A DNA stretch of 64,000 nt from Brevibacillus brevis. Lineage in GTDB: Bacteria > Bacillota > Bacilli > Brevibacillales > Brevibacillaceae. Shown one piece after another: positions 1,527 to 60,200 of the stretch (its first letter is position 1; each line of letters begins with the position of its first letter). The notes under the pieces are model-generated. The model was not told the origin of the DNA. It ran no database searches and was given only the letters and a program-made list of their open reading frames with translations. A program made the translations under genes and the position numbers. The DNA is taken from the NCBI RefSeq assembly GCF_031583145.1, contig NZ_CP134050.1:2679501-2743500 (forward strand), read 5' to 3'.

Positions 1527-1555
1527 TTGACTTTCTGGGCGCTCTCTTTTACGAT
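1527..1555 (+). promoter_or_regulatory. Sigma-A promoter of the trp operon
   Basis: TTGACT at 1527-1532 and TACGAT at 1550-1555 are separated by 17 bases. Initiation is predicted near 1561-1563, exactly where a 5' stem-loop begins. The promoter overlaps the end of a GGCGCTCTC/GAGAGCGCC inverted repeat (1538-1573) that could also weaken read-through from aroH. Confidence 0.75.
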
Positions 1556-1560
1556 AAGTG

Positions 1561-1579
1561 AAACGAGAGCGCCTCGTTT
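1561..1579 (+). promoter_or_regulatory. 5' stem-loop of the trp leader RNA
   Basis: AAACGAG (1561-1567) pairs perfectly with CTCGTTT (1573-1579) around a five-base loop, right at the predicted transcript 5' end. The B. subtilis trp leader carries an equivalent 5' stem-loop that assists TRAP binding. Equivalence here is inferred from position. Confidence 0.55.
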
Positions 1580-1607
1580 TCCGGTTTTTATGAGAATTGC
1601 CGGCTGA

Positions 1608-1659
1608 GAGCAGAGCAAGTAGAGCAGAGTTGAGATGAGTTAGGTTGAGGAGAGAAGAG
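1608..1659 (+). promoter_or_regulatory. TRAP-binding site (eleven GAG/UAG/AAG triplets)
   Basis: Triplets start at 1608, 1613, 1617 (AAG), 1622, 1627, 1632, 1637, 1641 (TAG), 1647, 1652 and 1657, mostly spaced by two or three bases and otherwise GAG. The tryptophan-activated TRAP ring wraps RNA with eleven such repeats. The last triplet is also part of the antiterminator, so binding would favour termination. Confidence 0.75.
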
Positions 1660-1711
1660 CAGGCTGGGATATTTGTTGTACGCCCAAACCAGTGCTCGCA
1701 CTGGTTTTTTT
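1657..1711 (+). terminator. trp attenuator: antiterminator and overlapping intrinsic terminator
   Basis: Terminator: AAACCAGTG (1686-1694) pairs with CACTGGTTT (1699-1707), followed by a T run. Antiterminator: GAGCA (1657-1661) pairs with TGCTC (1693-1697) and CTGG (1664-1667) pairs with CCAG (1689-1692), with GG bulged. The two are mutually exclusive, and the antiterminator uses the eleventh TRAP triplet. Confidence 0.75.
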
Positions 1712-1967
1712 ATTTCGTCGATATGTGGTTGACGGGTAAGAAGCTTCGCCTGCGATAAAGGCTAGGCATTACAAGTTTATCCATGAAAAACGATGCATTG
1801 TTTTTCATTAAACTTGAGTGGTGGACGTATAAAGCTGGCTCCCGGGAACGGGCAGCGTAGGCCGTCCTCCGCAATTGCATATTTTCTCCCCCTACCTCTC
1901 GCTCTAGAAAGCGGGCAGAGAAAAGGCATAGACCTTTTCCTGGACCCGAAAAAGGAGATGAGAGTCC
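1712..1967 (+). promoter_or_regulatory. Extended trp leader downstream of the attenuator
   Basis: About 255 bases without a convincing gene. It holds a strong hairpin at 1772-1816: CAAGTTTA with TAAACTTG and ATGAAAAAC with GTTTTTCAT, with a TCC bulge. Near trpE, CCTTTT (1933-1938) can pair either with AAAAGG upstream (1921-1926) or with AAAAGG at 1950-1955, which overlaps the trpE ribosome binding site. This is a possible translational switch; function is inferred. Confidence 0.45.
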
Positions 1968-3482
1968 ATGTATTTCCCCTCCCTGGCCGAGGTTCAATCC
2001 CTTTCGGCAGACTATTCCTTTATTCCCGTTAGCATGACCTTGTTGGCCGATCAAGAAACACCGATCCGTCTGTATCAGAAGATTCGCACAAGCGACTCGT
2101 TTCTGCTGGAGAGTGTAGAAGGCGGGGCGAGATGGGCGCGATTTTCGTTCATCGGCATGAACCCCTTTCAGATCGTGGAAGCCAAAGGCGAGGAAATCAC
2201 TGTCAGCCGCCGAGGCAGCGAGCGCACCATCCATCAGGGCAATCCGGTGCACTTCCTGCGTGAGGAAATGGACCGTTACAAAAGCCCGAAGCTGCCTGGA
2301 TTTCCCCGATTGAGCGGAGGCGCAGTAGGTTTCTTCGGCTACAATACGCTCCGCTACTTTGAAAATTTGCCGGCACATCGGCATGAGGCACTGCGCGTTC
2401 CCGACATGCGCTTCTTGTTCGTGGACGAGATGATCGCGTTTGACCATCTGAAGCAGGTAATTCAGCTGATCGTCAATTTGCACGTCGAAAATGGCGATAC
2501 TCCAGATGACATTGCCCGAAAATACGAACAAGTCTGTGATCGGCTTGAGCGTCTTGCCGCCAACGTGTCTGCTCCCGCGGAAACGGAGCAGCGCATCCAG
2601 GTAGCCGCTCAAAAACCGGCGCCACTTTCGGTCCAGGCCAACATGAGGCGGGAGCAGTACGAGCGAATCGTGGAACAGGCAAAAGCGTACATCGCGGCAG
2701 GAGATATTTTTCAAGTGGTGCTGTCCCAGCGTTTTTCTGTAAAGACAGACGTCGATCCGTTTGCCGTGTACCGTTTGCTTCGTACGCTCAACCCGTCGCC
2801 TTATATGTTCTACCTCGAATACGAGGGGGAGACCGTCGTGGGCACATCGCCGGAGCTCCTGGTTCGTGTAGAGGACGAGAAGGTGGAGATGCGCCCGATC
2901 GCAGGAACGCGCAAGCGGGGGGCGACTCCAGAGGAAGACGAACAGCTCGCGGCGGATCTTTTGGCCGACAGCAAAGAGCGCGCCGAGCACTACATGCTGC
3001 TCGACCTCGGACGCAATGACGTCGGGAAAGTCTCCGCATACGGAAGCGTGAAGGTGGAAGAAGCGCTGGTCATCGAGAATTACTCCCATGTCATGCACAT
3101 GGTCTCTCACGTCACTGGCAAGCTTCGCGAAGGACTTCACCCGTTCGATGCGCTGCTCTCGGCCTTCCCCGCCGGGACAGTCTCCGGCTCGCCCAAATTG
3201 CGGGCCATGGAAATCATCGCCGAGCTGGAGCCCGATGCCCGGCATTTGTACGCCGGAGCGATCGGATACATTTCCTTCGACGGCTCCCTGGATAGCTGCA
3301 TCACCATTCGGACGCTGTTCTTCCAGGATGGCATTGCTCACGTGCAGGCCGGAGCGGGCATCGTGGCGGATTCCGTACCGGCGAGCGAGTACCAGGAGAC
3401 AGTCAACAAGGCAGCCGCCATGATTTCCGCTCTGGAAAAAGCCGAGCAGTTATTCGCGCGCAAGGAGGAGATGACATGCTGA
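1968..3482 (+). CDS. trpE: Anthranilate synthase component I
   Basis: Large subunit of anthranilate synthase, converting chorismate plus ammonia or glutamine-derived ammonia to anthranilate. The 504 residues carry the tryptophan feedback motif LLES at 46-49 with Ser60 exactly as in LLES-X10-S, and the C-terminal chorismate-binding domain (GTVSGSPKLRAME and AGAGIVADSVP regions). The glutaminase trpG is not in this operon; in Bacillus it lies in the folate operon. A ribosome binding site AAAAAGGAG ends about ten bases before the ATG and can be sequestered in leader RNA. The stop overlaps trpD by seven bases. Confidence 0.97.
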   Translation: MYFPSLAEVQSLSADYSFIPVSMTLLADQETPIRLYQKIRTSDSFLLESVEGGARWARFSFIGMNPFQIVEAKGEEITVSRRGSERTIHQGNPVHFLREEMDRYKSPKLPGFPRLSGGAVGFFGYNTLRYFENLPAHRHEALRVPDMRFLFVDEMIAFDHLKQVIQLIVNLHVENGDTPDDIARKYEQVCDRLERLAANVSAPAETEQRIQVAAQKPAPLSVQANMRREQYERIVEQAKAYIAAGDIFQVVLSQRFSVKTDVDPFAVYRLLRTLNPSPYMFYLEYEGETVVGTSPELLVRVEDEKVEMRPIAGTRKRGATPEEDEQLAADLLADSKERAEHYMLLDLGRNDVGKVSAYGSVKVEEALVIENYSHVMHMVSHVTGKLREGLHPFDALLSAFPAGTVSGSPKLRAMEIIAELEPDARHLYAGAIGYISFDGSLDSCITIRTLFFQDGIAHVQAGAGIVADSVPASEYQETVNKAAAMISALEKAEQLFARKEEMTC

Positions 3483-56008: not shown

Positions 56009-57229
56009 GTGAAAAAACGAGCGTCAATGATCGTGGCTACCCTCATGTTGGTGGCGACCGGGTGCGGCCCGGCTCCAGAAGCGCCGCAGCAGGCAGAAGC
56101 AAAAGCGAAGGTAGTGGAAGTTTTCCGGGTACAAAAGGAGGCCGCTCCCGTATCCCTGACGGTGACAGGCATGGTGGAAGCCAAACGGGACGCCGTTCTC
56201 CCATTCGGAACGGGCGGCACGATCTCAGCCATTTCCGTCACGAAAGGCTCCAAAATCGGCCAAGGACAATTGCTGGCGACGTTGGATACCAAGTACTATC
56301 AAAAGGAAGTAGAAGTCGCAGCGAGCCAGGTGGAGGAAGCGGCCGCCCGCAAATCTCAGACGCTCAAGGGCGCTACGTCACAAGCCATCGAGCAGCAGCG
56401 CCTGCAAGTAAAAAGCGCGCAGACCAGGCTGGACAAAGCGCGTCAGGATGTCGCAGTCGGCGAAAACCTCTTCGTTGGCGGAGCTATTTCGCAAAGCGAA
56501 ATAAATGACCGGAAGCGGGCGTTGAGCCAAGCGGAAATCGATTTGAAAAATTCGCAGCTTGCTTTGGATGAGCTTTTGCGAGGTGCGGAGCCTGAAGACG
56601 TGGCAGTTGCCAATGCTTCGATCAAACAGGCGACGGGACAGGTGGAGCGAGCGAAAAAAAGCCTGGACGATGCCAAGATCGAAGCTCCTTTCGCTGGAAC
56701 GATCGTAGACGTATACAAACAGACAGGAGAACAAGCGTCCCCCGGCGAGCAAATCATTCATCTGGTCGATTTGTCGGAAGTAAAGGTCACACTGGATGTG
56801 ACCAACGATCTGATCGCTCAATTCCGAGAGAAGGAAAAGGTGCAGATCGTATCGGGTGACGGCAAGAAAAGTCCGGGTACGGTGACATTCGTGTCTCCTG
56901 TCGTCGACAAGCAGACGGGCAAATATCGGGTAGAAGTGACGGTTGCCAACCCGGACAGCTACTGGCGCGGCGGAATGACGGCGACAGTCGAGGTGCCGAG
57001 AAAGGTCGGCGGGTTTCTGGTTCCTCTGGAGAGTGTCGGCGTAAGTCAGTCCCAGCATTACGTGATGGCCATTGAAAATGGCCTGACGGTGAAAAAGGAA
57101 GTCAAAGCTGGACAGATGGTTGGCGACAAGATTGAAATTTTGTCCGGAATCAAAGAAGGAGACCAGCTTTTGCGTTCCGGCATCACGTTTTACGTCGAGG
57201 GGCAAAAAGTAGAGGCGAGGGGAGAATAG
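56009..57229 (+). CDS. RND efflux periplasmic-adaptor-type lipoprotein
   Basis: Membrane fusion protein of the HlyD/AcrA type, 406 residues. A lipoprotein signal ends in LMLVATGC with lipid Cys19. The lipoyl/barrel-sandwich halves are seen around GTGGTISAISVTKGSKIGQG and APFAGTIVDVYKQTGEQASP, separated by a helical hairpin (about 105-200). The GTG start follows GGAGGA. Five bases before the RND gene it forms a two-gene operon. Adaptors of this kind occur in Gram-positive RND systems without an outer-membrane channel. Confidence 0.9.
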   Translation: MKKRASMIVATLMLVATGCGPAPEAPQQAEAKAKVVEVFRVQKEAAPVSLTVTGMVEAKRDAVLPFGTGGTISAISVTKGSKIGQGQLLATLDTKYYQKEVEVAASQVEEAAARKSQTLKGATSQAIEQQRLQVKSAQTRLDKARQDVAVGENLFVGGAISQSEINDRKRALSQAEIDLKNSQLALDELLRGAEPEDVAVANASIKQATGQVERAKKSLDDAKIEAPFAGTIVDVYKQTGEQASPGEQIIHLVDLSEVKVTLDVTNDLIAQFREKEKVQIVSGDGKKSPGTVTFVSPVVDKQTGKYRVEVTVANPDSYWRGGMTATVEVPRKVGGFLVPLESVGVSQSQHYVMAIENGLTVKKEVKAGQMVGDKIEILSGIKEGDQLLRSGITFYVEGQKVEARGE

Positions 57230-57234
57230 ACTAG

Positions 57235-60200
57235 ATGAACAAGATGATTCTCTTTTTGCTGAAAAGGCGGCTGATTGTCTACCTCTTCACGTTTCTGATC
57301 GTGATTGCGGGAATCGGTTCCCTGTTTAGCTTCAACGTGGAGCTTGTGCCCAAGACGAACTTCCCCGTCCTTTCCGTCAACATTTCTGGCGGTTCGATCC
57401 CGCCGGAAGAGATGGAAGATAAAATTACGAAGAAAATCGAACAAGAACTCAAGTCGATTGCGGAAATCAAAGAATACTCCTCGACGACAGGCTCAGGCTC
57501 CGTCAATATCCGGATCACAGCCGAAGAAGGCAAGGGGGACAAAGTCAAGACGGATGTGCAAAACGCGGTCAACCGGCTGCGCAACGGCTTCCCGAAGTCA
57601 GTGGATCGGGTAGAAGTCAACCAGATGAACTTCGGAGACGACGCGTTGATCGACTATGCCCTTGTTGGCGCGGATCCGCAGGCGATGCTCAGCCTGGCGA
57701 AGACGACCATCAAAGACCGGATCGAGGCTGTTCCGGGAGTGAAGGAAGTCGAAATATCCGATCGCAGCTTTGAAAACCAGATCGCTGTCACATTGCGACC
57801 AGAGCTTTTGAGCGCCTACCGGACCACCCCGGCCGAAGTGATCTCGCAGCTCCAGGAAACGAACTGGAAGCAAGCGGTGGGGACGCTGGAGAATACCGGC
57901 TTCGACACGGTCGTGATGGTAGACGATACGTACAGCACCGTGCAGGAAATGGCGGAGCTGCCGATCGAGACGCCGAACGGGATCGTCACCTTGAATCAGC
58001 TGGCCACTGTCGAGGATTTGCGCGGGAAGGTGAAGGATTCGGTCGCATTGACGGACGGAAGTGTGTTCATTCACATGAGCGTGAAGCGCGCAGAAGGCAG
58101 CGATCTGATCACCACGCAAGGCAAGGTAGAGAATGTCGTCCGTGAAATCAATGCAGAGGCGAACGGCCAGTACCAAATGAAAGTCATGGTAGAAGCAGTC
58201 TCGTACATCCAGCACGCGGTGACCAATTTGAGCCGCGATGTCATGATCGGGGGCGCGCTTGCGATCATCATTCTGTTTGTTTTCCTGCGCAACTGGCGTG
58301 TGACGCTCGTCATTGCGACGACATTGCCCCTTTCCGCACTGATGACTTTTATCGCGATGAAATTGGGCGGCTACAACATCGACATGGTCACGCTGCTGTC
58401 GCTCAGCTTGTCGGTCGGTCTCATCGTCGATGCCGCGATCGTCGTGCTCGAGAGCATCTACCATTTCCGCGAAAAAGGAGAGACACTCACGCAGGCAATC
58501 GTAAAAGGAACCCGTGAAGTATTGACCCCGGTGTTTACATCGCAGCTTACGATTATTATCGTATTTTTGCCGCTGGTTTTTGCGGACTTCGAAGACTGGC
58601 TCAAGCCAATCCTGGCCACGATTGCCTTCACGGTATCTTCTGCCATTATCGCGTCGACCATCGCAGCCTTCTTCTTCGTTCCTGTCTTCTCCGACCGCTT
58701 CTTGCAGAAGGACAAGAAGATCTCGCTGGAAGGAGAAGCAAAGGAGCACGTCATCGTCCGCTGGTTTAGCAAGCTGCTTCAGCTGGCGCTCCGCCATCGG
58801 GTGATCACCTTGCTGGCCGCAATATCGATCTTCGTCGCGGCCGGTGTGCTCACTCCGCTGATGAAGATGGGGCAGGGTATCGATGCCAATGAAAACCTGG
58901 TGTTTGCCACCATAGAGATGCCGACCGGCTCGACGCTGGAAAACACGCAGAAGGCGGCGGTGGCGGGCGAAGCCGCACTGCGGGGCATCCCGGACGTAAA
59001 AGACGTATTCTTCTTCTCGTCGAAGGAAAGCTCGGAAATTTTTATCTCACTTCGTCCAAAAAGCGAACGGGCGCACGATAAAGAAGCGCTGACTGCGGAG
59101 ATAAACGACCGGCTCAAGGCGATCCCCGGGATCGAATCGATCTCGACCGCATTCGGCGGGCAAGGGACGGAAGCCCCGATCCAGCTCGACATCGTCGGCG
59201 ATGACATGGAGCAAATGCGCAAGACTGCCGCGGACGTAGAAGGAATGCTCGCGACGATTCCAGGCGTCAACAACATTCGCAACGACTTCAAGGAAGGCAA
59301 GGAAAAAGTGACGCTCGTTCCGAAGCAGGAGGCATTGTCGCGTCTAAACGTAGACCCGCGCTCACTGCTTCAGCAGCTCAGCACGATGATTGGCGACCAA
59401 CCGATCACTTCCATTACGAAGGACGGTATCGAGGTGGATGTCGTCGCCAAAATGCCGGATAACTGGCTGAAGCACCCGGACCAATTGCACAGCCTGATGA
59501 TCAGCAGCAGAAGCGGAGCCGCCGTACCGCTGTCGGAACTGGTGGAATGGACGTACAGCAAATCGCCGGTCGTCATCACGCGTGACAAAGGAGAGAGGAT
59601 CGTCACTGTGTCCGCCGAATTGCAAGGCAGCGATCTGGGAACGGTGGGCAGGCAAATCACGGAGAAACTGCCGACACTTGCGGTTCCTGCGGGGTACCGG
59701 GTCGACATCGCGGGCAAGCTCAAAGAGCAGAGCGCCAACATGACACAGGGTGTCTTCGTCTTTGCCGGTGTCCTCGCCCTGATCTACGTGGTCATGGTCG
59801 CACAGTTCGGACGCCTTTCCCAGCCGTTCATCATCCTGCTGACGATTCCGATGGCCCTGGTAGGGGTCGTCATCGGCTTCGTCCTCACGCAGCGGATATT
59901 CGGCGAAATGGCAATGATCGGGATCATCATGCTGGTCGGAATCGTGGTATCCAACGCCATTCTCCTGATCGACCGGATCAACCTGCTGCGGGGGCGCGGC
60001 ATGAAACTGGCTGATGCGATCGTGCAGGGCACGAAGGAGCGGGTTCGCCCGGTCATCATGACGAAATTGACCGCCATTTTGGGCATGCTGCCGATGGCGC
60101 TGGCAATGGCGGAAGGCTCCGATCTGGAAGCGCCGCTCGCGACGGCTGTCATTTCGGGGCTGGTCTTCCACACCATCGTGACGCTTGTCCTCGTGCCTGT

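Follow-up and report, generated by a model that had tools for sequence, protein, structure and literature searches.

A TRAP-type attenuator in the trp leader of Brevibacillus brevis with a conserved inverted repeat that spans its promoter

Introduction

In Bacillus subtilis, the 5' stem-loop of the trp leader aids TRAP, trpG is a known TRAP target, and the order of the trp supraoperon is established. The trpEDCFBA leader of this species has the same parts as the leader described here, including 11 NAG triplets, a 5' stem-loop and a competing antiterminator and terminator, and its TRAP is likewise encoded by mtrB. In B. subtilis, part of the leader can also sequester the Shine-Dalgarno sequence of trpE (PMC12288461, in the part available to us). 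According to the available part of PMC3913778, the B. subtilis attenuator is a weak intrinsic terminator, and the U stretch is interrupted in several species; the T tract of the present leader differs in being unbroken.

In B. halodurans TRAP, the C-terminus points away from the subunit interface owing to Asp71 (together with Lys15) and to Thr72, which leads to a 12-mer; the same ring size is held likely for other TRAPs that have both Lys15 and Thr72, and the residues of 11-mer TRAPs are Leu or Val at position 15 and Ser at position 72 (PMC3184956, available part). The role of the C-terminus is restated in the available part of PMC3435397. The B. halodurans leader is reported to carry 19 NAG triplets, compared with 11 in the present leader (PMC3184956, same part). 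Species with TRAP and without anti-TRAP exist, and B. halodurans is one of them (PMC11255114, available part). Within our partial coverage of the literature, no related paper on TRAP in Brevibacillus was found, and papers that combined Brevibacillus with mtrB appeared unrelated.

In the present study, we analysed the trp leader of a Brevibacillus brevis genome. The TRAP attenuator itself is ordinary and expected; the new part is an inverted repeat that spans the trp promoter, the function of which we infer.

Layout of the trp leader

The window (the whole stretch of 64,000 nucleotides that was analysed) carries aroB (45-1148) and aroH (1152-1526), followed by trpE and further trp genes, as given by the list of open reading frames, and the leader is located between aroH and trpE. 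The gene names were read from the sequences and the usual gene order. For the comparison, 35 leaders were fetched, of which 8 were duplicates; the 27 distinct leaders consisted of 26 from the genus, the window included, and that of B. dissolubilis (L010). The following features were found in the promoter and attenuator region:

1527-1555, plus strand: trp promoter, TTGACT-17-TACGAT, immediately 3' of the aroH stop codon (1524-1526)
1538-1546, plus strand: inverted repeat, arm 1, GGCGCTCTC, located in the promoter spacer and absent from RNA of the trp promoter
1561-1579, plus strand: 5' stem-loop, AAACGAG-AGCGC-CTCGTTT, where the RNA is predicted to start
1565-1573, plus strand: inverted repeat, arm 2, GAGAGCGCC, overlapping the 5' strand, the loop and the first 3'-strand base of the 5' stem-loop
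1608-1659, plus strand: predicted TRAP site of 11 NAG triplets (nine GAG, AAG at 1617 and TAG at 1641), from the chain search
1657-1697, plus strand: predicted antiterminator, GAGCA(GG)CUGG with CCAGUGCUC, including triplet 11, from folding
1686-1711, plus strand: intrinsic terminator, hairpin and T tract, from the terminator scan and folding

Every part named by the original prediction was found at the position that it had assigned. The sigma-A-like promoter matched the consensus at 9 of 12 positions. A promoter scan of 10.5 kb returned two promoter-like sites against 3.7 expected from shuffles, so the scan alone is no evidence; the site that had been proposed as a sigma-A promoter was retained in all 26 genus leaders. 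The 7-bp stem-loop proposed at the predicted start was conserved and predicted to fold in the same 26 leaders, and 153 of 154 cells paired among the 22 distinct rows of the alignment. Its pairs were invariant and therefore gave no covariation. The distance from the 5' stem-loop to the triplets was longer than in the other genus leaders by about 65-70 nt in L109-L111 and by about 50 nt in L094.

The terminator hairpin was AAACCAGTG-CTCG-CACTGGTTT (1686-1707), followed by T. As had been proposed, the predicted antiterminator overlapped it, using GAG 11 and occupying the 5' arm of the terminator. Across the leaders, at least two bases of GAG 11 lay inside the predicted antiterminator in only 18 of 27, and four of the nine misses (L108, L110, L111 and L010) looked like misplaced segment ends.

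NAG triplets

The chain search ordered the triplets as GAG, GAG, AAG, GAG, GAG, GAG, GAG, TAG, GAG, GAG, GAG, with spacers of 2, 1, 2, 2, 2, 2, 1, 3, 2 and 2 nt. The original prediction had named one AAG and one single-base spacer; the AAG was present, and the single-base spacers proved to be two (before 1617 and before 1641), the other eight of ten being 2-3 nt. AAG and 1-nt spacers make poor TRAP sites, and under strict 2-3 nt spacers the longest chain in the leader comprised only 5 triplets. The leader chain scored 10.1, a value that none of 2000 leader shuffles reached, and the triplets thus exceed what chance would give. Thirty dinucleotide shuffles of the full 64 kb gave a top score of 6.1, and the best chain elsewhere in the window had 6 triplets.

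The triplets were conserved in close relatives, a chain of 11 or 12 being found in 24 of the 26 genus leaders. In L107 and L113, the chain was broken to 7 by an eighth triplet that reads CAG or TGG, and L010 had a chain of 6. NAG triplet runs 5' of trpE were also seen in other genera (L010, which is the same leader as L165, and others of L163-L183), as well as in the Paenibacillus and Cohnella loci L011-L033, where they were judged by eye only.

The eighth triplet, UAG, was one base off the 5-nt register, and the in-register position read AGG. The UAGG at this point was complementary to the CCUA of a pyrimidine stretch 3' of the terminator, and the adjoining GGAGAGAA was complementary to UUUUCUCC. 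A two-sided change was observed in L010 (UUGG with CCAA), the pairing was retained in L113 (UGGG with CCUA), and L107 had a mismatch (CAGG). From these sequences, the position of the eighth triplet seems to be kept for more than TRAP.

TRAP protein and predicted ring size

The absence of mtrB from the genome had been named as evidence against the attenuator, and the search returned a homologue with an intact frame 8.7 kb upstream of the window (PF02081, E 1.1e-38). It encodes a protein of 74 aa (Pfam PF02081, E 9e-40). Among the solved-structure matches to this protein, 15 of 15 were MtrB/TRAP, and the best ones were 9bds/9be7/9be8 and 3zzl, which we take to be the B. halodurans protein. mtrB was present in 26 of 26 genus genomes, this one included, and of 398 genomes sampled across the class, 272 had TRAP. 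Taken with the leader parts and their conservation, these results suggested that the leader is very probably a TRAP-controlled trp attenuator.

The TRAP of this genome shares Lys15, Asp71 and Thr72 with that of B. halodurans. Lys15 and Thr72 were found in all 26 genus TRAPs, with Asp71 in 24 and Glu71 in 2; none of the 26 had the 11-mer residues, Leu or Val at position 15 and Ser at position 72. Position 73 is Thr here and Glu in B. halodurans, and the present protein ends at 74; because of these two differences, other salt bridges of the B. halodurans protein are missing here. From its residues, the Brevibacillus TRAP is predicted to form a 12-subunit ring, so that a one-to-one fit between 11 triplets and 11 subunits is not assured. 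The genus pairs 11-triplet leaders with TRAPs of the predicted 12-mer type. The original prediction had described the locus as the full architecture known from B. subtilis. This holds for the leader parts; it fails for anti-TRAP, which had no match in this genome, for the TRAP residues, which are of the 12-mer type, and for the eighth triplet, which is out of register. The possible pairing over the trpE Shine-Dalgarno sequence, an insertion of about 170 nt and the inverted repeat in the promoter formed no part of the original prediction.

A probable Shine-Dalgarno switch and an insertion

Downstream of the terminator, the leader continues to trpE with the following features, one of which (1641-1656) lies within the TRAP site:

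1641-1656, plus strand: stretch of triplets 8-11, UAGG...GGAGAGAA, able to pair with 1882-1894
1712-1881, plus strand: lineage-specific, strongly folding, single-copy insertion between the terminator and the Shine-Dalgarno switch
1882-1905, plus strand: conserved pyrimidine-rich stretch, UUUUCUCCCCCUACCUCUCGCUCU, with a 5' part for triplets 8-11 and a 3' part (1896-1905) for the trpE Shine-Dalgarno sequence
1954-1964, plus strand: trpE Shine-Dalgarno sequence and next bases, GGAGAUGAGAG, pairing with 1896-1905
1968-3482, plus strand: trpE, named from its sequence and its relatives

The 3' part of the pyrimidine stretch, CUCUCGCUCU, can pair with GGAGAUGAGAG over the trpE Shine-Dalgarno sequence. 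Both alternative long-range helices were possible in 27 of 27 leaders, with −18.1 to −24.7 kcal/mol for the triplets (A) with the pyrimidine stretch (B) and −12.7 to −24.7 kcal/mol for B with the Shine-Dalgarno sequence (SD). When the triplets were masked, as they would be by bound TRAP, the pyrimidine stretch moved to the Shine-Dalgarno sequence in most leaders, and the mean B:SD pairing index rose from 0.23 to 1.10. The mean unpaired probability of the Shine-Dalgarno sequence was hardly altered by the masking (0.34 to 0.30). The B:SD helix was strong even without masking in L109, L112, L113 and L010, it was weak even with masked triplets in L116, and the index reached only 0.44 and 0.38 in L096 and L097, respectively. 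Swaps of B and SD segments across clades gave a mean of −12.9 for cognate, −10.7 for non-cognate and −7.8 for shuffled pairs; some cross-clade swaps were stronger than the real pair, indicating that the specificity is modest. A Shine-Dalgarno switch in this leader is likely from these folding results, and is not novel, because the B. subtilis leader is known to do the same.

On the basis of the leader parts, their conservation and mtrB, the following mechanism may be proposed. With ample tryptophan, TRAP would bind the triplets as they emerge, aided by the 5' stem-loop; the antiterminator would be blocked and transcription would end at the terminator. RNA that escapes would stay bound by TRAP, so that 1882-1905, barred from triplets 8-11, would pair with the trpE Shine-Dalgarno sequence and lower translation. 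Without tryptophan, triplet 11 would join the antiterminator, and triplets 8-11 could keep the pyrimidine stretch off the Shine-Dalgarno sequence.

The insertion region was strongly folded (z −4.9 for 1720-1970). A repeat or mobile element was considered for 1712-1881 and rejected, the insertion being single copy in the genome; the remaining 25 genomes of the genus gave no more than two matches of 30 bases (E 0.006). Different hairpin-rich insertions were observed at the matching position in L092, L093 and L094. Homology of these with the insertion of L091 was likewise rejected, since the alignment gave at most a common hairpin order in three of the four, with a segment for L093 that started too early and included the terminator. 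In the borstelensis-type leaders L114-L116, the end of the pyrimidine segment was 215-230 nt from the trpE start, compared with 47-65 nt in the other genus leaders, and this long stretch was also highly folded.

The promoter-spanning inverted repeat

The two arms, GGCGCTCTC and GAGAGCGCC, are perfect 9-bp complements. All nine positions paired in 26 of 26 genus leaders when G-U was counted, with a single G-U in each of four leaders (L093, L096, L097 and L112), and the arms were 18 nt apart in 20 leaders and 19 nt apart in 6. Two-sided changes were observed at three pairs among the 22 distinct rows: the three borstelensis-type leaders had AU in place of GC and CG in place of UA, and the two thermoruber-type leaders had UA in place of CG. 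All 198 cells paired, and none of 500 shuffles reached this paired fraction or the covariation score; three two-sided pairs were reached by 7 of 500 shuffles, and the number of pair types by 368 of 500. In slid controls of the repeat, 36-75% of the cells were paired. The covariation support, which represents about two evolutionary events or clades, is good but not overwhelming.

The longest Watson-Crick run was 9-12 in 22 of the 26 Brevibacillus leaders, and the TRAP-type leaders of other genera differed in that the repeat was not found. There the longest run was at most 6 in L010, in 21 of the 23 Paenibacillus-type loci L011-L033 (L018 and L027 were omitted, their match offset being different) and in 22 further loci. 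The latter were those used out of 30 after 8 without a promoter-like site had been set aside, and they included L184 and L188, which have no TRAP-like run, and L165; outgroup promoters were picked by score, and some may be wrong. The inverted repeat with an arm in the promoter spacer may also set the leader apart from that of B. subtilis. On present evidence, the promoter-spanning arm makes the attenuator a variant of the TRAP type.

RNA that starts at the trp promoter would lack arm 1, because arm 1 is located upstream of the predicted start. In local folding of the 26 leaders (up to 20 nt beyond arm 2, with the start set at about 1558), the mean probability of the 5' stem-loop was 0.95 in trp-promoter RNA and 0.000 in read-through RNA. 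In the window, the hairpin of arm 1 with arm 2 had −24.8 kcal/mol versus −8.0 kcal/mol for the 5' stem-loop; the 5' stem-loop does not form in RNA that contains arm 1 because the longer hairpin wins in the predictions. Since the 5' stem-loop aids TRAP in B. subtilis, its loss led us to a hypothesis of gating. In this hypothesis, the inverted repeat most likely acts in read-through RNA from aroB-aroH, in which arm 1 would pair with arm 2 at the expense of the 5' stem-loop, so that how strongly TRAP acts would depend on the promoter from which the RNA came. We tentatively put forward the combined picture that the promoter spacer encodes an anti-5'-stem-loop arm by which read-through RNA may escape or weaken TRAP control while trp-promoter RNA stays fully controlled; the TRAP ring of 12 subunits that is predicted and the patchy distribution of anti-TRAP belong to the same picture. 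The arm 1:arm 2 hairpin may itself also weakly terminate. If true, the repeat would be a cis-element through which an attenuator acts differently according to whether the RNA started at the attenuator's own promoter or at one further upstream; to our knowledge, no such promoter-dependent device is known for TRAP.

It is conceivable, though doubtful, that the repeat acts as an intrinsic terminator or insulator of aroB-aroH transcription, by which the GC-rich hairpin followed by UCGUUUU would end the incoming RNA and leave the trp leader with transcripts of its own promoter alone. The hairpin is stable at −24.8 kcal/mol, it follows the aroH stop codon directly, and the plus-strand scan returned no other terminator-like site from 1053 to the trp promoter. 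However, the tract 3' of the stem is interrupted (UCGUUUUCC in the window and UCGUUAUUUC in L110), and CUCGUUU is already required by the 5' stem-loop. The hairpin was also absent from the sites returned by the scan, its loop exceeding the length that the scan allows.

The repeat is unlikely to be an operator at which a repressor of the trp promoter binds the DNA. The repeat does span the −10 element, but its arm spacing varies between 18 and 19 nt, the single G-U departures in four leaders fit RNA pairing better than a site bound by protein, and the exact pair of arms occurs once in the genome. We consider it similarly improbable that the aro and trp messages are separated by processing at this hairpin, a reading favoured by its 16 predicted pairs with a one-base bulge in read-through RNA. 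That the leader is under a T-box, such as control other Gram-positive trp operons, or a leader peptide, with incidental triplets, is hardly credible: no Rfam family matched at its gathering score in the window, insertion 1712-1881 included, the sole match in 1400-2100, to HSR-omega, is implausible (21.8 bits, where the gathering score is 80), the one ATG frame seen by eye from the RNA start to the terminator (1590, ATG AGA ATT GCC GGC TGA) contains no Trp codon, and both the triplets and mtrB are conserved.

Anti-TRAP and other possible TRAP targets

The search for rtpA (anti-TRAP) in the window's genome gave no match at E 1e-3 among 101 candidates. This absence is not unusual, because other species with TRAP also have no anti-TRAP (PMC11255114, available part). 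In the genus, PF15777 matched in 12 of 26 genomes at E 1e-3, and 11 of the matches exceeded the curated cut-off. The anti-TRAP-like genes (L132-L143, around position 3001) comprised 8 full-length and 4 shortened forms. Six of the eight full-length proteins had two CXXCXGXG motifs, and in L138 and L139 the first motif lacked its last glycine; the four shortened forms had a single zinc-binding motif each, and one contained a stop codon. The Pfam E values were 1.9e-22 and 2.7e-19 for two full-length proteins and 1.2e-12 for one shortened protein. In the control search, B. subtilis was not the only match: E. coli and two further genomes matched as well, which calls for caution with weak matches; we assume that the additional matches come from related DnaJ-type motifs. 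Up to about 3 kb from the 12 genes, neither the T-box nor any other Rfam family scored at its gathering threshold. With anti-TRAP full-length, shortened or not found within one genus, the need for anti-TRAP can be tested by comparison.

Further TRAP sites were searched for genome-wide with a rigid pattern, which gave 8 matches against 23 for the reversed control pattern and hence no enrichment. Three of the 8 matches overlap at 57.2 kb, and one is the trp leader itself. The NAG run at 57207-57239 (best chain six), located over the start of an efflux-pump gene, was treated as chance in view of the lack of enrichment. For the TrpP transporter as a TRAP target, no PF17099 match was found in the genome.

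At the Shine-Dalgarno sequence of pabA (trpG) in the window's genome (L130:1957-1997), two groups of four NAG triplets were recognized by eye, GAG-TAG-GAG-GAG and GAG-GAG-GAG-GAG, of which the chain search joined only the second. Judging from these triplets, pabA is likely to be a second TRAP target, as trpG is in B. subtilis. Similar runs were present at pabA in four other genus genomes (five of five examined), and two of them were chains of nine.
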